Positions 16,318-29,800 of a DNA stretch of 32,454 nt are shown in pieces. Under the pieces are notes generated by a model, which was not told the origin of the DNA, did no database searches, and saw only the letters and a program-made list of their open reading frames with translations. The translations under genes were made by a program, and so were the position numbers. This DNA is from Candidatus Bathyarchaeota archaeon (lineage in GTDB: Archaea; Thermoproteota; Bathyarchaeia; Bathyarchaeales; Bathycorpusculaceae). The DNA lies in NCBI GenBank assembly GCA_003141855.1, contig PLNS01000027.1, positions 50,009 through 82,462 of the forward strand. The letters run 5' to 3'. The first letter of the stretch is position 1. Each line of letters begins with the position of its first letter.

Positions 16318-18405
<2,088 letters not shown>

Positions 18406-18474: not shown

Positions 18475-19110
18475 TTAGTAGATGTATGTTGCAGTTGCAG
18501 TTATACTGTTAGTGGCAGTCTGGTTCGTGTTACCGATTTTAACTACCACTGTGCCTGGCAAGACTGGAAATAAGGCGGTTCCTGATGTTCCTAACGTTTG
18601 GTTATAGTCAAAGTTGGTTTCTCCATAGCTGTAGATGACTTCAGCGTAGGTTGTGTTTGCTGAGGCAGTTGCTTGAACAACAATGTACCCCGCGTAATCT
18701 AATTGGTTGTTCCAAACAGTTGTGGTAGTGTTAGCATCTTGGACAAAGTTAGCGTCGTACAAGGTTCCTGAAGTCTGTAACTGCAGAATTTTTTCTAAAG
18801 ATAACATATCCGCGTTTGTGGTTGTTAATGTATCGTTCAAGGCTAATAATTGTTGATTTAAGTAGGCAATTTGCGTTACATACGTTGATGCATTAGCAGT
18901 GTTAGCAAGCCTGTCTTCCAGAGATGCAATCTGCGCTTGCAACGAGCTAATCGTACTGTCTTTCTCAGCTAATTGCGCTTGTGAACCATTTGGTTGGTAA
19001 ATCGCGATTACGCCGACTAAGCTAGCGGCAAGTATTACGCATATTACTGCTAGTGCAATGACTACGATTTTTGGGTTGCTTTTCTTTTGGACGTTATTTT
19101 CTTGGCTCAT
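18475..19110 (-). CDS. Membrane-anchored surface protein with coiled coil
   Basis: A 211-residue protein with a short basic cytosolic head (1-14), an uncleaved signal-anchor helix (about 15-38, IVVIALAVICVILAASLVGVI), and an exterior part. The exterior part starts with a heptad-rich coiled coil (about 44-108, LAEKDSTISSLQAQIASLEDRLAN), which is followed by a beta-sandwich-like domain (110-211). Several N-x-S/T sites (NAS, NDT, NTT, NQT) suit archaeal N-glycosylation. No enzyme motif is seen. It could be an S-layer-associated or pilin-like spacer protein, but there is no class III signal peptide. The TATA-like TTTTATAC on the minus strand is about 45 bases before the ATG. The gene is monocistronic. 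Confidence 0.7.
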   Translation of the reverse strand: MSQENNVQKKSNPKIVVIALAVICVILAASLVGVIAIYQPNGSQAQLAEKDSTISSLQAQIASLEDRLANTANASTYVTQIAYLNQQLLALNDTLTTTNADMLSLEKILQLQTSGTLYDANFVQDANTTTTVWNNQLDYAGYIVVQATASANTTYAEVIYSYGETNFDYNQTLGTSGTALFPVLPGTVVVKIGNTNQTATNSITATATYIY

Positions 19111-19232: not shown

Positions 19233-19673
19233 TTAGTATTTTACGCTCAGGTAAAACAGTATCAGCAATGCTGCCATTTCAAAGAGGTCGGGAAGGAATG
19301 CGAAGGGACCTAACCCGAATATGCCGAACCCTGCGAATCCGATTACGAACGGGCTCCATGTTATGTCTTTTATTAGGAAGAACAAGGCGAAAAGCGACAG
19401 CCCAATTGTGAATTCCGATTTCGTTTTGAGGTAAATGCTCACATAGTTGACAATTAAAATGATGGTAAGAACGATGTTAACAGTGGAAAACACGGTTCGA
19501 GCAATGTAGTATAACTCAATATCGGCAGGGTTAGGCATGTAATGCCTAGGTGTAAACGGAAAGTTGGGACTTCTCAGCTGACTAGTCTGATAGGTCGCTA
19601 TTATAACCGCTACCGACGCAGTTAAAACTAACAAAACCGTAAGCAATACCAAGATTGTTTGTTTTCTATTCAT
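19233..19673 (-). CDS. Four-helix membrane protein, partner of winged-helix regulator
   Basis: A 146-residue integral membrane protein of unknown function. Hydrophobic segments lie near 7-27, 57-77, 88-105 and 112-145, and the loop between the first two is proline- and aromatic-rich (NFPFTPRHYMPNP). The ATG at 19673 has GAGGGAGAAACA as a clear ribosome site, so the in-frame TTG at 19691 is not used. It starts 31 bases after the end of a winged-helix regulator gene on the same strand. Such a regulator plus small membrane protein pair is common in archaea, where the membrane partner may be sensor or target; which one applies here is not known. Confidence 0.65.
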   Translation of the reverse strand: MNRKQTILVLLTVLLVLTASVAVIIATYQTSQLRSPNFPFTPRHYMPNPADIELYYIARTVFSTVNIVLTIILIVNYVSIYLKTKSEFTIGLSLFALFFLIKDITWSPFVIGFAGFGIFGLGPFAFLPDLFEMAALLILFYLSVKY

Positions 19674-19703
19674 TGTTTCTCCCTCTTGCATGTTCTCCTT
19701 TTT

Positions 19704-20006
19704 CTACCTTTTCCCGATTTTCTTCACAATCTCCTCAAACAAGGCGTAATTGTCCTCCAGGGTTTGCGACAGAAAATATGTTGCGCCATACCGGTCTCCG
19801 ATAGAAGTGACCATTCTGTTCTTCTCTAAGACCTCAAGGTGATGCCGCATCGTTTTATAATCCATCTTTAGCAAAGTCGCCAGTTGATTAGCGTTCTGCG
19901 GAGTTTCCTTTAACGCCAAAATTATTTTTGCACGGGTCGGTCCGCCTCTGGTACCTGCAATTAGCCATCCTAGCAGGTATTTTAGCGAACGCGCATTTGC
20001 AGACAT
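19704..20006 (-). CDS. Winged-helix (ArsR-like) transcriptional regulator
   Basis: A 100-residue DNA-binding protein. GGPTRAKIILALKETPQNANQLATLLKMDYKTMRHHLEVLEKNRMV is a classic ArsR-like helix-turn-helix; the wing is DRYGATYFLSQTL. The short C-terminal helix (EEIVKKIG) probably dimerises. No metal ligand cysteines are present, so the signal is not obviously a metal. GGAGACCTAAAAA before the ATG is a good ribosome site. A perfect palindrome covers its own promoter, which indicates autoregulation. It is the first gene of a two-gene unit with a membrane protein, divergent from a secreted-protein gene. It is the best local candidate to control the shared promoter box at 20107 and 21291. Confidence 0.85.
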   Translation of the reverse strand: MSANARSLKYLLGWLIAGTRGGPTRAKIILALKETPQNANQLATLLKMDYKTMRHHLEVLEKNRMVTSIGDRYGATYFLSQTLEDNYALFEEIVKKIGKR

Positions 20007-20106: not shown

Positions 20107-20155
20107 AATTAGGTGCCAATTTGGGTGGAATCTTGAAAAATCCCTTAATAATTTA
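20107..20155 (+). promoter_or_regulatory. Conserved promoter box A (secreted-protein gene)
   Basis: AATTAGG, then ATTTGGGTG, then TTGAAAAATC (BRE-like) and TTAATAA (TATA). It aligns without gaps to 21291-21339 ahead of the ABC/HtrA operon, with 35 of 45 positions identical by eye. The TATA part lies about 52 bases before the start at 20198. Confidence 0.6.
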
Positions 20156-20197
20156 CTGCTCACCGTTTCTTGAACAATGGAGGTGAAATATCAAGAT

Positions 20198-20734
20198 ATG
20201 AACACAAAAACTAAAGCCTTAGCTTTACTTTCAGTCATAGTCGTCGCAGTAGTTGCAGGTTCATTAATTTTTGCTACCCAATCAATAGCTAAAGCTGACC
20301 CAACTGCCTCAGTTGCAACCGACTCAGAAACGACACCTTCAGCTGTAAATGCAAGCGACAACGGCTTTAACAATGGACAAATGGCGTTTGTAATGGAACC
20401 TAGATTCGGCATGGGTCACAGAGGACCTGACCGAGGCTTCGGAGGATTTGGCCCTGAAGCAATTCAAGTCAGCAGTGACTTTACAGCGAACGTAACTAAC
20501 ATCGCGAAAAATGACAGTGACGTACAAAACCTCCTCAACCAAGGCTACAACATAACTTCAATCCACCCAGTAATCAGCACAGTAGTTGACGGGAACGGCA
20601 ATGTGGTAACAAAGGCTTCCACCGCAGACTTAACCTTGCAAGGGACGAATGGCAGAGCATTCGTGGTAGTTGACCTAGACCAAGCAAAGGTTACAAAGAT
20701 CGTGACTTTCACCGTGACAGAAATCAACAAGTAA
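20198..20734 (+). CDS. Secreted protein with signal peptide
   Basis: A 178-residue exported protein. KTKALALLSVIVVAVVAGSLIFATQSIAKA is a classic signal peptide, with probable cleavage after an A-x-A-like site near residue 32. Next comes a Ser/Thr-rich linker, a Gly/Arg/Phe/Met-rich stretch (FVMEPRFGMGHRGPDRGFGGFG), and a compact C-terminal domain (about 88-178; VTNIAKNDSDVQNLLNQGYNI, then TVVDGNGNVV and AFVVVDLDQAKVTKIVTFTV) that resembles PepSY-like or small archaeal extracellular folds. The start at 20198 is set by a perfect GGAGGTGA ribosome site ten bases upstream; an ATG at 20177 would lie before it. It shares promoter box A with the ABC/HtrA operon and may be its substrate or sensor. 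Exact function unknown. Confidence 0.8.
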   Translation: MNTKTKALALLSVIVVAVVAGSLIFATQSIAKADPTASVATDSETTPSAVNASDNGFNNGQMAFVMEPRFGMGHRGPDRGFGGFGPEAIQVSSDFTANVTNIAKNDSDVQNLLNQGYNITSIHPVISTVVDGNGNVVTKASTADLTLQGTNGRAFVVVDLDQAKVTKIVTFTVTEINK

Positions 20735-20747
20735 ATACCAAACTAAC

Positions 20748-20777
20748 TTTTCTTTTTTTTCAGTTTCCTTTTTTTTT
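20748..20777 (+). terminator. T-rich terminator after secreted-protein gene
   Basis: Three closely spaced T runs of 4, 8 and 10 bases start about 14 bases after the stop codon, a strong archaeal termination signal. Confidence 0.55.
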
Positions 20778-21023
20778 AAGTATTTTTAGTGTGTGTTTAG
20801 CTGTTTTTTAGCGGTTGTTTGATGCTGAAACCTATGTGCGCGGGGTTTCTTGGAGGAATTTACAGTGTTTTTTCTGGGGCTTTTGATGTTTTCTGGCGGG
20901 CTCTATTGTTGGCGGTTGCAACTGATTCTTTCCGATGGCTTTTCAAAAAAACCTCGCAAAATGCTCCTTTTGAAAAAACCAGCTTAAATCAACAACGGAG
21001 AAAAGAAGTTGTTGCTGTTGTTG

Positions 21024-21058
21024 TTGTTGCAACTCGCCCCCAGCACCAGTTGCAACAA
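21024..21058. repeat. Perfect 11-base hairpin in a gene-poor gap
   Basis: TTGTTGCAACT (21024-21034) and AGTTGCAACAA (21048-21058) pair perfectly around a C-rich 13-base loop, preceded by a GTTGTTGCTGTTG microsatellite. It lies in the 640-base gap 20735-21382, where I see no convincing gene. It may be a small structured RNA or a chance product of the GTT repeats. Confidence 0.4.
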
Positions 21059-21290
21059 TCAACACCTACAAAACTAACCTTCAACGCAGAAAAACAGCCA
21101 AACTCCAACGACAACGCCAACACGGTGAAAAATGCCACGCCAACTTTTTAAAAGCCAAGTCAAAAAAAAACCAAGCAAAATAAAATCAGTGAAGCCCATC
21201 TAAATACACACTATTTTTATTTTTTATAAGTGACGAGTATTCTTCAGGAAACTTTTCTCTTTTTTATGTTTTAGCATGTAACCGCTGGGC

Positions 21291-21339
21291 AATTAGGGTT
21301 AGATTTGGGTGAGATTTTGAAAAATCGTTTAATAACGCT
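21291..21339 (+). promoter_or_regulatory. Conserved promoter box B (ABC/HtrA operon)
   Basis: This is the counterpart of box A at 20107: AATTAGG, ATTTGGGTG, TTGAAAAATC and TTTAATAA in the same spacing. Transcription should start near 21358, which leaves a ~120-base leader containing a small reading frame before the permease gene. Confidence 0.6.
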
Positions 21340-21382
21340 TTGGAGTTAAGCAGCATCGGCAATCAAGGAGAGATTTGAAAAA

Positions 21383-21487
21383 ATGGAAAAGGCCATAAGC
21401 CCAATAACTGCCCAAAAAAATCCCCTTCAAGTCTCTTCTTGTTTGTCTGTTATGTTCATAAATGAAAGGTGCTATATGTGGGAATAA
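21383..21487 (+). CDS. Possible 34-residue leader peptide overlapping the permease start
   Basis: An ATG preceded by CAAGGAGAGATTTG opens a 34-codon frame (MEKAISPITAQKNPLQVSSC, then a hydrophobic stretch) that stops at 21485-21487, just inside the permease gene. It lies about 25 bases after the predicted transcription start. Such an overlap could couple translation of the permease to that of the leader. Real translation is unproven. Confidence 0.35.
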   Translation: MEKAISPITAQKNPLQVSSCLSVMFINERCYMWE

Positions 21488-22935
21488 TCAATAGAGCGAT
21501 AAGGAATATTTCAAGAAGAAAAATTCGAGCATTACTAGTAATTATTGCGTTAGGCTTTTCGATGGCCATTATGATTTCAATTCCTGCTGGCGTTTTAGCT
21601 AACCAGCAGACTGCAACGGACTTAGCTTCGAACCTAAGCAACACTATAACCCAAACTGGGCAATCGATTAATCAGACATTAACCCAGATTGATTGTAGTT
21701 TAGCGTCTAGTTTTTCAGGTTTTGGTTTTCAAGCGCCCAATTCAACCAACTTTGATCGTAGTCAATTAGGTCAGTCTGGTCAGGGAAGCGGCACCGGGCG
21801 GACTTTTGATCCTAGCCAATTTGGCGGAGGCGGTACGCGTGGTCAATTTGGTGGCGGCGCGTTTGGAGGGGGACAAGCAAGCCCCATGAACCAGACCCTT
21901 TACAATGACATTAACAGTAGCATCTCGGGAGTTGTAGCTGTTGAGCCTATACTGCAAGCTTCAGAAGGCAACAACGAAACTATGTCCATGTTTGGACGAA
22001 CATTTACCCGTCAAATAACCTCGTACACAATTGAAGGAATTCCGTTAACCTCCGATCTTATCGATAACTACCCAATACTGACAACAAACATAACTGCTGG
22101 ACGAAACCTACAGGCTGGCGATAGCGGAGTAGTTCTGCTAAGTGAAAATAACTCGGCGTACTTCAACGCAGACGTCGGTGACACGATTCAAATTCTCGAC
22201 CAAGACTTCACGGTAATAGGCATACATGGCACATCGTCAGTTTCAGACCAGTTAACACTATACATGAACCTATCTGATGCTCAATCCGTAACAAACAACA
22301 CTGGCTACATCACAAGTTTTCGAGTGTTCGCACAAAACAGCGATGTCGTAACTCAGGTCGCTCGCTCCATAAGCTCTCTACACTCTGAGCTTACCGTCAC
22401 TACAGGTCAAGAACGCTTAACCCAACTTCAAACCTTACAATCAACATATAACACTGCATTGGATAGCGCGCAAGCTTCTATCGGACAAACACAAACAACC
22501 GCATTTGAAGAAATCATCGTTGTAGTCGCTGCAACAAGCCTGATAGTATTATTTGTAATGCTCTACACGGTTAGGGAGCGAACTAAGGAGATTGGCACGC
22601 TTAAAGCGATTGGATTCAGCAACTCGACGGTAATGGGGCAATTCATGCTTGAAGGCATCCTGCTAAGCGTAATCGCTGGTGTAGTTGGCATTGCAATAGG
22701 CATCGTAGCTGCACCTGCGCTCTCGTCTCTTCTGCTTCCGAGTATAAACCTGTTCGGAAACACCGCGGCCGCAGGCTTCACAAGAAACGTCATGCCAACT
22801 GCCGCAGCATCCGTGAATCTGGAGCTTGTCTTGATAGCGTTCGGCGCTTCAGTCGCACTTGGCGCCTTAGGCAGCTTGTACCCCGCATGGAGAGCAGCAA
22901 AAATTAGACCAGCAGAGGCGATGAAGTATGAGTAA
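21478..22935 (+). CDS. FtsX/MacB-type ABC transporter permease
   Basis: The membrane subunit of a MacB/LolE-like ABC system. A first helix (about 18-40, RALLVIIALGFSMAIMISIPAGV) is followed by a large exterior domain (about 40-340) with a Gly/Gln/Phe-rich insert (GQFGGGAFGGGQAS), then three C-terminal helices of the FtsX domain (EEIIVVVAATSLIVLFVMLYTVRERTKEIGTLKAIGFS, then two more), ending YPAWRAAKIRPAEAMKYE, a typical end. Such proteins use ATP for mechanical work on exterior partners rather than classic import. The GTG at 21478 follows AAAGGTG by six bases; a GTG at 21469 is also possible. The stop overlaps the ATPase start by eight bases. The Gly-rich insert is unusual. Confidence 0.93.
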   Translation: MGIINRAIRNISRRKIRALLVIIALGFSMAIMISIPAGVLANQQTATDLASNLSNTITQTGQSINQTLTQIDCSLASSFSGFGFQAPNSTNFDRSQLGQSGQGSGTGRTFDPSQFGGGGTRGQFGGGAFGGGQASPMNQTLYNDINSSISGVVAVEPILQASEGNNETMSMFGRTFTRQITSYTIEGIPLTSDLIDNYPILTTNITAGRNLQAGDSGVVLLSENNSAYFNADVGDTIQILDQDFTVIGIHGTSSVSDQLTLYMNLSDAQSVTNNTGYITSFRVFAQNSDVVTQVARSISSLHSELTVTTGQERLTQLQTLQSTYNTALDSAQASIGQTQTTAFEEIIVVVAATSLIVLFVMLYTVRERTKEIGTLKAIGFSNSTVMGQFMLEGILLSVIAGVVGIAIGIVAAPALSSLLLPSINLFGNTAAAGFTRNVMPTAAASVNLELVLIAFGASVALGALGSLYPAWRAAKIRPAEAMKYE

Positions 22936-23737
22936 ACCTGTACTGCAAATAGAAAATCTGTGCAAATCTTTCACGCTTGGCAAACGAGACATCAATGCCT
23001 TATCCAACCTAAATCTACAGGTAAACGCTGGCGAGTTTGTGGCAATCATGGGTCCCTCAGGCTCAGGCAAAACCACCCTGCTCAACGTCATCGGCTGCAT
23101 TGACAAGGCAACCAGCGGTCAAGTGCTTTTGGATGGTATTGATGTAGGTAGCATGCCTGAGAGTCAGCTCTACAAGATACGGCGCGATAAGATGGGTTTC
23201 GTGTTCCAAACTTTTAACCTGTTACCATACCTGAACGCTCGTGAAAACGTCGAGTTACCCATGGAAGGCAAAATCAAATCAAAAACTGAACGTAAGAAAC
23301 GGGCAAGCGAACTGTTAGCGATGGTTGGGCTTTCAGGCAGAGAAAACCACAGGCCTCAACGCCTAAGCGCAGGCGAACAGCAACGCGTCGCCATCGCAAG
23401 GGCTTTAGCAAACAACCCCGCGATTATCCTTGCTGACGAGCCTACAGGAAACCTTGACAGCCAAAACAAGCAAGAAATCATCAAGCTGCTCGCAAACCTA
23501 AACCTAACGCAGGGCACAACCATAATCATGGTCACGCATGATAGCCAAGCTGCAAACCACACCGAACGAATGCTCCTGCTCAAAGATGGAAAAATAGTCA
23601 AAGAAAAGGAAGGTCTGCATTTAGCGAAAAAGAACAATAAATGCCCAAATTGCGGAAGCACTATTCAAATGAATGACGAAACCTGTCCCGCCTGCAAGAA
23701 GCCTATCTTTTCAAGTGATGAACTCTTCTCAACTTAA
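22928..23737 (+). CDS. ABC transporter ATPase with zinc-ribbon tail
   Basis: The ATPase partner of the preceding permease, in the MacB/LolD class. Motifs are Walker A GPSGSGKTT (42-50), Q-loop Gln94 in FVFQTFNLLPYL, signature LSAGEQQR (146-153; Ala replaces the first Gly of LSGGQ), Walker B IILADEPTGNLDS and His204 in MVTHD. Residues 232-269 add a C-terminal zinc ribbon with Cys239, Cys242, Cys253 and Cys256 (KCPNCGSTIQMNDETCPACK), absent from ordinary LolD/MacB ATPases. That tail might dock a partner or sense metal; this is inference. ATG overlaps the permease end (ATGAGTAA), so the two are translationally coupled. HtrA follows 12 bases later. Confidence 0.95.
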   Translation: MSKPVLQIENLCKSFTLGKRDINALSNLNLQVNAGEFVAIMGPSGSGKTTLLNVIGCIDKATSGQVLLDGIDVGSMPESQLYKIRRDKMGFVFQTFNLLPYLNARENVELPMEGKIKSKTERKKRASELLAMVGLSGRENHRPQRLSAGEQQRVAIARALANNPAIILADEPTGNLDSQNKQEIIKLLANLNLTQGTTIIMVTHDSQAANHTERMLLLKDGKIVKEKEGLHLAKKNNKCPNCGSTIQMNDETCPACKKPIFSSDELFST

Positions 23738-23749
23738 AGTGGGTTTTTT

Positions 23750-24964
23750 ATGGAGCCTTTACCTTTTCCTTCAATTCCGCCTGCCCCGCAAAAGACTAGG
23801 CGTTTTTCAGCAGTGATGATAGTTGTTCTTCTACTTGTTGGATTAGTTGCAGGCGGGTTAATCGGTTACGCAATCACTTATTCGGATTTCAACGCGAAAC
23901 TCACAAATCTGCAAGGACAACTTGGTTATTCCTCAAATGGCAACTCCACGGCGTATCCTAATGTGGTATTCTTGCTTGGGGATAACGTTTCGCTCTCCAA
24001 CCTCTACCAGCAGGTTAAGTCTTCAGTGGTTGTAATCCAAGACCTTGTACCCCAATACAGCTTCTTCGGAAAACTTGCAGGCTACAGTCTACAGCAGGGT
24101 TCAGGCTTCATAACCCAAGTAGACAATCAATTAATCATAGTCACCAACAACCATGTCATAGAAAATGCAATCAACGAAACAGTAACCTTCGCAAACGGCG
24201 ACGCTTACCCAGCGAAAGTGTTGGGTTCAGACCCTCAAGCTGACCTCGCAGTTCTCACCATAACACCAATGCCCAGCGGTCTAACACCGTTAGTTCTTGA
24301 TAGTTCGGATTCTTTGCAGGTCGGTGAACCCGTTGTTGCGGTAGGTTCTCCCTATGGCTTGTCAGGAACGTTAACTACGGGCGTAATCAGCGCGACGGGG
24401 CGAACAATCACTGAAGCTTCAAGTTCAAGCCAAAATGGTCAAACTATTCCCGATATTATTCAAACGAGCACTGCAATTAACCCTGGAAATTCAGGCGGTC
24501 CACTGCTTACTTACGCTGGCGAAGTCGTCGGCATAACAACCGCTGGTATTAGCAACTCTCAGGGTTTAGGTTTTGCGATTCCGTCGGACACGATAATGCG
24601 TGAACTAGGCTCGTTGGTTACTTCGGGCTCATACACTCAGCATCCATCCATAAACGCAGTGGGAACAGACATGAATTACCAAATCGCCCAAGCCATGGGA
24701 ACCAGCGTCACCTACGGATGGCTCGTTGAAAGCGTTTCAGCGCAAAACAGCCTCAAAGCAGGCAACACCCAAACAACAATCCTTGGCTCAAGAGTAATAA
24801 TCGGCGGCGACATCATAACAGCCATCAACGGAGCAAGAATAACCAACACCGACGACCTCCTATCCTACCTCGAACAACACACGCTTCCAGGCCAAACCGT
24901 CAATTTCACAGTAATACGAAACGGGCAAACCCAAACAGTCCCAGTAACCATAGGAACAGCTTAA
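23750..24964 (+). CDS. HtrA/DegP-like membrane-anchored serine protease
   Basis: A 404-residue trypsin-like protease facing the outside of the cell. The short proline-rich head (1-14) is cytosolic; residues 20-42 form the membrane anchor (VMIVVLLLVGLVAGGLIGYAI). The protease domain (about 75-290) has the catalytic triad in TNNHVIENA, DPQADLAVL and NPGNSGGPLL. One C-terminal PDZ domain (about 300-400, with SRVIIGGDIITAINGARITNTDDLLSYL) should bind exposed protein tails. All catalytic residues are intact. It is cotranscribed with the FtsX/MacB-like pair, suggesting envelope protein quality control or processing of a surface substrate. No strong ribosome site precedes the ATG, so translation may be coupled to the gene before it. 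Confidence 0.95.
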   Translation: MEPLPFPSIPPAPQKTRRFSAVMIVVLLLVGLVAGGLIGYAITYSDFNAKLTNLQGQLGYSSNGNSTAYPNVVFLLGDNVSLSNLYQQVKSSVVVIQDLVPQYSFFGKLAGYSLQQGSGFITQVDNQLIIVTNNHVIENAINETVTFANGDAYPAKVLGSDPQADLAVLTITPMPSGLTPLVLDSSDSLQVGEPVVAVGSPYGLSGTLTTGVISATGRTITEASSSSQNGQTIPDIIQTSTAINPGNSGGPLLTYAGEVVGITTAGISNSQGLGFAIPSDTIMRELGSLVTSGSYTQHPSINAVGTDMNYQIAQAMGTSVTYGWLVESVSAQNSLKAGNTQTTILGSRVIIGGDIITAINGARITNTDDLLSYLEQHTLPGQTVNFTVIRNGQTQTVPVTIGTA

Positions 24965-24968
24965 CCAG

Positions 24969-25030
24969 CATATTTGGAGCCTAATAGAAATAGCATGCAG
25001 AAACCTATAGGGGGTAGGTCAGTTTGGCAG
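24969..25030 (-). repeat. Dispersed ~60-base repeat, locus 2 (one unit, inverted)
   Basis: On the minus strand this reads GCCAAACTGACCTACCCCC, then CTATAGGTTTCTGCATG and TTTCTATTAGGCTCC, with AAATATG at the end. It matches the units at 532-597 and 29618-29680 over nearly the whole length, in opposite orientation. It fills the gap between HtrA and mtnP. The hairpin TGGAG..CTCCA of the other copies is lost here through base changes. Confidence 0.8.
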
Positions 25031-29617: not shown

Positions 29618-29800
29618 GCCAATACCGACCTACCCCCTATAGGTTTTTGCATGGAGTTTCTATTAGGCTCCAAATAGGTTCGTACCAACCTACCCTCTAT
29701 CGTTTCAACATAGAACCTCTAATAGGCTCCAAATATGTCCGGCTCTACCCCTCTATAGGTGTACTGCAATGATTGGATATTAGGACCCAAATATGCCTTG
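29618..29800 (+). repeat. Dispersed ~60-base repeat, locus 3 (three tandem units)
   Basis: Unit A (29618-~29680) is near the consensus: CGCCAATACCGACCTACCCC, CTATAGGTTTTTGCATGGAG and TTTCTATTAGGCTCC. Unit B (about 29681-29739) and unit C (about 29740-29800) are more diverged, but keep the ACCTACCC / TCTACCCC, AATAGGCTCC / TTAGGACCC and AAATATG blocks. The spacing is 60 and about 55 bases, with conservation across whole units, so this is not a CRISPR array. It fills the 297-base gap between the LysE and Tsr3 genes. Confidence 0.8.

Follow-up and report, generated by a model that had tools for sequence, protein, structure and literature searches.

Two archaeal transcription activators are among the closest described counterparts of the locus reported here. 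EarA, the archaellum activator of Euryarchaeota, acts from multiple sites arranged in tandem 5' of a BRE that is weak and A-rich (PMC5512572, PMC10665913), and in Pyrococcus furiosus an operon for an ABC exporter is activated by TFB-RF1 (PF1088; PMC5937170). Here, we describe a locus of the Bathyarchaeia in which one promoter box precedes both a secreted protein and an operon encoding an ABC exporter and an HtrA protease. In bacteria, regulons for envelope quality control are well known, among them sigmaE, Cpx, and LiaRS. To our knowledge, little has been described of archaeal envelope quality control, and a literature search for a Bathyarchaeia regulon of this kind returned no paper.

Gene neighbourhood and its conservation

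The analysed stretch of DNA (the window) comprises 32,454 nucleotides of contig 27, in a genome of 2.39 Mb and 96% completeness. Named relatives of its ABC protein, at 75–88% identity, belong to Candidatus Bathyarchaeota and Candidatus Bathycorpusculum. The genes considered here are arranged as follows.

18475..19110, minus strand: g211, an N-terminally anchored secreted protein, likely the third regulon member in the window
19233..19691, minus strand: g152, a small membrane protein with about four TM segments as judged by eye, usually adjoining the HTH gene
19704..20006, minus strand: ArsR-fold winged HTH regulator (HTH; PF01022), the candidate box-binding protein
20198..20734, plus strand: SecP, composed of a signal anchor, a disordered Gly/Met/Arg-rich linker, and a C-terminal alpha2-beta4 domain
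21469..22935, plus strand: FtsX/MacB-type permease (PF02687 and PF12704 above cut-off)
22928..23737, plus strand: MacB/LolD-like ABC ATPase with a probable C-terminal zinc ribbon (PF00005, 122.9 bits)
23750..24964, plus strand: membrane-anchored HtrA protease with a PDZ domain (PF13365, 114.2 bits; PF13180, 39.1 bits)

A preliminary description of this DNA had named the same gene products, and the family searches agree with it: an ArsR-fold HTH, an FtsX/MacB_PCD permease, an ABC ATPase, and a trypsin-like HtrA with a PDZ domain. For SecP, the most likely start is the ATG at 20198, which follows GGAGGTGA in a layout common to the relatives, and is likelier than the start at 20177 given earlier.

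The genes remain neighbours in relatives of families f1 and f9, as the preliminary description supposed. The order HTH, SecP, FtsX, and ABC is identical in five congeners, with HtrA next wherever the contig extends to it. Among 20 further neighbourhoods from both families, HTH and g152 lie beside SecP, FtsX, and ABC in most, often together with HtrA. The arrangement differs in family f9, where HTH, g152, SecP, FtsX, and ABC run in one direction and HtrA is divergent. The neighbourhood of HTH and the membrane protein, SecP, permease, ATPase, and HtrA is thus kept across genera and families of the order. Homologues of g211 adjoin the HTH-g152 pair in two genomes, G004 and G023. A DsbH/DUF255 thioredoxin-domain protein (16318–18405) often neighbours this pair within the genus; no box was seen there.

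Two repetitive elements were also observed. A MITE-like insertion occupies positions 20788–21212, between SecP and the FtsX promoter, and ends in 13-bp terminal inverted repeats (AGTGTGT[G/A]TTTAG) with a 6-bp ATTTTT duplication; two more related stretches (78% and 70%) occur in the genome, and the SecP-FtsX distance in congeners is about 400 bp shorter than here. A short dispersed repeat (CGACCTACCCCCTATAGGTTTCTGCA..GAGTTTCTATTAGGCTCCAAATA) is found at three places in the window, namely at about 541–589, at 24965–25030 on the minus strand, directly 3' of HtrA, and at 29626–29674.

A promoter box specific to few genes

The preliminary description reported that two 49-base segments upstream of SecP and FtsX align without gaps at roughly three of four positions. 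Positions 20107–20155 and 21291–21339 are identical at 35 of 49 bases (71%) in a gapless alignment, the best 49-mer pair on the plus strand of the window, the dispersed repeat aside. The core TTTGGGTGRRATYTTGAAAAATC has two matches in the window, with 0.00 expected. Genome-wide searches were made by patterns and covariance models. Allowing up to three mismatches, TTGGGTGRRATYTTGAAAAATC is found at exactly two places in the 2.39-Mb genome, compared with none for the reversed control. When the whole genome was scanned with a profile built from 30 boxes (R2), only three sites were significant. Two of them, FtsX (46.0 bits, E 1.1e-11) and SecP (44.3 bits, E 3.6e-11), belong to the R2 training set, and the third lies on contig C25 (27.4 bits). 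The boxes of the window are the following.

20107..20151, plus strand: SecP regulon box and TATA box, ATTAGGT / ATTTGGG / ATCTTGA at 11-bp pitch, then TTAATAA
21291..21335, plus strand: box and TATA box of the FtsX-ABC-HtrA operon, ATTAGGG / ATTTGGG / ATTTTGA at 11-bp pitch, then TTTAATAA
19151..19182, minus strand: variant box upstream of g211 (GTTGGGTTGAATCTGGAAAAAATCTTTTATAC), a weak R2 match (12.4 bits, E 0.37)

The g211 variant (TTGGGTnnAATmTGGAAAAAA) is recognisable 5' of g211 homologues in relatives. The C25 site precedes a secreted, C-terminally anchored protein of 313 amino acids that matches no Pfam family. Other two-repeat sites in this genome (on C23, C9, C15, and elsewhere) were dismissed, as they stand outside any promoter context. 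The shared box is real and specific to few promoters of the genome. With three significant sites in this genome it is no general promoter element, and the earlier statement that the likeness goes well beyond the needs of BRE and TATA is borne out; the box does not stand before most genes.

Architecture of the box

Aligned into a profile, the sites give rATTagGGnnnaaATTTkGGTntAATTyTGAAAAAyccTTTAATAA. Sites were chosen by the core TTTGGGTnnnATTnTGAAAAAT with up to three mismatches, so that the conservation of the core stems partly from selection. Neither the ATTnGG further upstream nor the TATA box belonged to the selection pattern, and the ATTnGG is kept nonetheless. Structurally, the box spans 45 bases and consists of three direct repeats, ATTAGGG-ATTTGGG-ATTCTGA, at 11-bp pitch, directly 5' of BRE/TATA. 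Upstream of TATA, the self-correlation of the profile peaks at 11 bp (0.56, against 0.08 +/- 0.11; reached in 0 of 300 shuffles), which identifies the repeats as three direct copies one helical turn apart. In three genomes (G009, G011, and G018), the box of an FtsX or HtrA promoter is short by about one 11-bp unit with the remainder kept, as would be expected for candidate modular binding sites. About 50 sites align almost without gaps at a nearly constant distance from TATA, the position known from EarA and TFB-RF1; the tandem organization is that of EarA rather than the palindrome of TFB-RF1.

The box across the order

In the six genomes compared first (this genome and the five congeners), both the SecP and the FtsX promoter carry the box in six of six cases. 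Further genera included, SecP promoters carry it, and so do the FtsX promoters of most f1 genomes. Where HtrA forms a separate unit, it has a box of its own (five loci: L063, L068, L070, L028, and L075). A blind search with R2 in 163 genomes of the order returned at least one match at E <= 0.05 in 106 genomes, with one to eight sites in each. Outside the training set, the box precedes FtsX-ABC(-HtrA) in ten genomes (G103, G075, G060, G125, G019, G124, G020, G015, G014, and G017) and others, and HtrA alone in G016 and, with longer leaders, in G049 and G047. The other R2 targets comprise secreted or anchored proteins, a Cthe_2159-domain surface protein, a membrane protein of about 220 amino acids that adjoins a VTC-like enzyme as read by eye, and the g211 homologue, before which G112 has a strong match.

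In relatives (L131:1999-4000, L149, and L140), the box stands before the Cthe_2159-domain surface protein, close to the membrane protein and the VTC-like enzyme, and a second box precedes the membrane protein of about 220 amino acids, which looks like another surface module of the regulon.

Could the likeness of the two promoters have arisen by a recent promoter duplication, or be ordinary core-promoter conservation, with no shared regulation? The two copies are 1.2 kb apart, and their likeness peaks over TATA and the upstream A-run. However, several families retain the box at orthologous promoters, HtrA genes that have moved still carry it, and, unlike core promoters, it has only three significant sites in this genome; its upstream ATTnGG, outside the selection pattern, is conserved as well. 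We regard such an origin as highly improbable. The box is very likely the switch of a cell-envelope regulon, kept at the same genes across many related genera. The regulon of secreted and envelope genes proposed in the preliminary description is thereby upheld as to the shared box and the conserved neighbours, and proves wider than was claimed.

The candidate regulator

The HTH protein matches PF01022 (HTH_5) with 37.5 bits against a cut-off of 22, consistent with an ArsR fold, and its recognition-helix region is nearly invariant across the order. Its best NCBIfam models are the SdpR autorepressor and ArsR/SmtB, all far below cut-offs; for the SdpR subfamily (NF033789), it scores 31.6 against 100. 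The partner protein g152 matches no Pfam family. Judged by sequence and position, the neighbouring ArsR-fold HTH is the prime candidate for the protein that reads the box. The preliminary description had also noted a palindrome in the HTH promoter. The winged helix itself stands, but the five congeners do not share the palindrome TCAGATTTAATCTGA, which was rejected as a conserved operator.

Across the 163 genomes, an HTH orthologue and a strong box occur together in 66, the box alone in 7, the HTH alone in 12, and neither in 78 (Fisher p 1e-24, a value inflated by the relatedness of the genomes). Several of the seven genomes with a strong box and no HTH match are incomplete or contaminated. 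Among those with HTH only, G004 and G023 have a weaker box of the g211 type, and G018 has a shortened box. Genomes that lack the HTH also lack the FtsX operon, which indicates that the module comes and goes as a whole. As it is lost as a unit, the co-occurrence was rejected as proof that the box is read by the HTH. No obvious covariation was seen between box variant and recognition helix.

Inverted rather than direct repeats are the usual binding sites of ArsR-fold dimers. The 11-bp direct repeats are atypical in this respect, and together with the seven genomes that have a strong box and no HTH match, and with sites far from the HTH such as that on C25, they speak for a reader encoded elsewhere, either another winged-helix protein or an alternative TFB that has a BRE preference of its own, with the HTH regulating something else. 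Against this, almost all genomes that have the SecP/FtsX cluster show the HTH-g152 pair next to genes with a box, and HTH and box co-occur in the proportions given above; we consider a distant reader improbable.

The sign of the regulation is a separate question. On the same box and regulon, a repressor (the HTH or another factor) might occlude BRE/TATA until released by a signal. In favour of this, BRE directly adjoins the third repeat and the A-run, most proteins with an ArsR fold repress transcription, and the nearest models of the HTH, distant as they are, point the same way. The box nevertheless lies mostly upstream of BRE, where archaeal activators bind, and its tandem organization ahead of an A-rich BRE is like that of EarA promoters (PMC10665913, PMC5512572). 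Repression is an unlikely reading; activation by the adjacent HTH is favoured, since the box sits 5' of BRE/TATA and is reminiscent of EarA promoters and of TFB-RF1.

Exporter operon products and SecP

The permease matches the FtsX C-terminal domain (62.1 bits) and the MacB periplasmic core (29.1 bits), both above the Pfam cut-off. The best NCBIfam scores of the ATPase are to DarD, LolD, and MacB, all below cut-off (LolD 237.5 against the equivalog cut-off of 307.75; MacB 238.4 against 966). In HtrA, the motifs VTNNHVIE, SDPQADLAVL, and GNSGGP form an apparently intact His-Asp-Ser triad. Trypsin-like domain, triad motifs, and PDZ domain place it in the HtrA/DegP superfamily, while its score stays below the cut-off of the DegP subfamily TIGR02037. 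These assignments suggest that the operon products may extract or export surface proteins and degrade them.

The SecP family is present in 39 of the 163 genomes. Its C-terminal alpha2-beta4 domain (about 20459–20731) is modelled by AF2 with a pLDDT of 94.8, and Foldseek returned no significant match among known structures. The nearest folds, all with non-significant E values, are the N-terminal region of copper amine oxidase, with the higher TM scores (0.55–0.60), and PepSY-type domains (3nqz and 5boi, E 0.17–0.18, TM 0.43–0.45). Pfam PepSY was found in 1 of 29 SecP members, at E 0.08. SecP was accordingly not assigned as a PepSY protein, the fold being suggestive without a significant match, and matches to PB2 cap-binding and CdtA in the fold and sequence searches were at chance level. 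A PepSY-like role, as a protease inhibitor or a chaperone for HtrA, would be a guess only, and the roles put forward in the preliminary description (substrate, sensor, or chaperone) are likewise putative. A second module on C15 (L163:1298-3173) parallels the SecP-HTH-g152 arrangement: it contains a Gly/Met-rich secreted protein with weak PepSY matches, an HVO_0163-type HTH, and a DUF7471-like small membrane protein.

A predicted structured leader in the FtsX transcript

The location of its TATA box puts the predicted start of the FtsX transcript near 21355, and a hairpin follows just after.

21358..21447, plus strand: structured 5' leader, a covarying stem of about 20 bp with the near-invariant loop GGCCATAAGCCCAA-n-AACTGCCCAA

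The hairpin has a folding z-score of -4.0. Across 11 genomes, 13 of 24 pairs show pair-keeping changes on both sides, and 92.7% of cells are paired, compared with 38–54% in slid controls. Rfam gave no match at the hairpin and three weak matches nearby, far below gathering scores. A small ORF was rejected as an explanation, because congeners differ by indels of 0, 1, and 2 nt in the loop, which no reading frame survives.

In congeners, a model of the leader (R3) matches at FtsX, or at HtrA in the absence of FtsX, and also in a second ABC-FtsX operon of G011. This genome holds a second copy at C15:35088-35176 (L163:7089-7177, minus strand; 88 bits), away from genes of the ABC-FtsX type. A TATA-like sequence lies 5' of that copy, and the congener G077 has a hairpin at the equivalent place; it is possibly a stand-alone small RNA. 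Long hairpins with a different loop occur in FtsX leaders of other genera, too. The reverse complement of the loop contains TTGGGC twice at 11–13 bp, resembling the box repeats.

Our best guess is that the leader binds a protein or a ligand. A two-layer regulon, in which a new order-wide activator acts on the triple-repeat operator and a new class of structured RNA senses via the loop GGCCAUAAGCCCAA..AACUGCCCAA, is a tentative extension that we put forward with reserve.

Proposed mechanism

We propose that the box serves as operator to a dedicated cell-envelope regulon of Bathyarchaeia and is most likely read by the adjacent HTH as an activator, and consider this probable. The three direct repeats (ATTnnGn), 11 bp apart, would present one DNA face directly 5' of BRE/TATA, on which several small winged-helix copies, most likely of the adjacent ArsR-fold HTH, could bind side by side. 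The bound HTH would then recruit TFB/TBP and activate transcription. SecP, the MacB-type ABC exporter (FtsX permease and ATPase), the membrane-anchored HtrA, and further secreted proteins would be switched on jointly; the latter would include g211, the anchored 313-aa protein of C25, and, in relatives, the Cthe_2159-domain protein. Paired with the HTH, g152 is hypothesized to be a sensor that releases or holds it in response to a putative physiological trigger, perhaps the envelope stress suggested in the preliminary description. The products may act on misfolded or surplus surface proteins, extracting or exporting them and degrading them.

Comparison with known systems

The locus provides a precise operator, a candidate regulator, a target set of exporter, protease, and secreted proteins conserved over the order, and a candidate RNA regulator. 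Its gene content resembles the bacterial MacB/LolCDE and DegP/HtrA systems, with an FtsX/MacB_PCD permease, a LolD/MacB-like ATPase, and an HtrA-PDZ protease in one operon. In contrast to these, all scores here are below the NCBIfam cut-offs, the promoter box is different, and the archaeal cell has no bacterial outer membrane. SdpR/SdpI-type pairs consist of an ArsR-fold regulator and a membrane sensor. The HTH gene beside the small polytopic membrane protein g152 recalls such a pair, but differs from it in the HTH score, far under the SdpR cut-off, and in a g152 without a Pfam family.

Among archaeal regulators, TFB-RF1 is alike in its small regulon, made up of its own-locus operon and a putative ABC exporter, and in a motif kept across an order at a conserved distance upstream of BRE/TATA (PMC5937170). 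Its motif, however, is one palindrome (TCTGAANTTCAGA), whereas the box described here has three direct repeats, and the targets here include HtrA and secreted proteins. With EarA, the locus shares tandem sites directly 5' of an A-rich, presumably weak BRE, cell-surface genes as targets, and a restriction to few promoters. The EarA motif is of the TACATA type and serves other targets.
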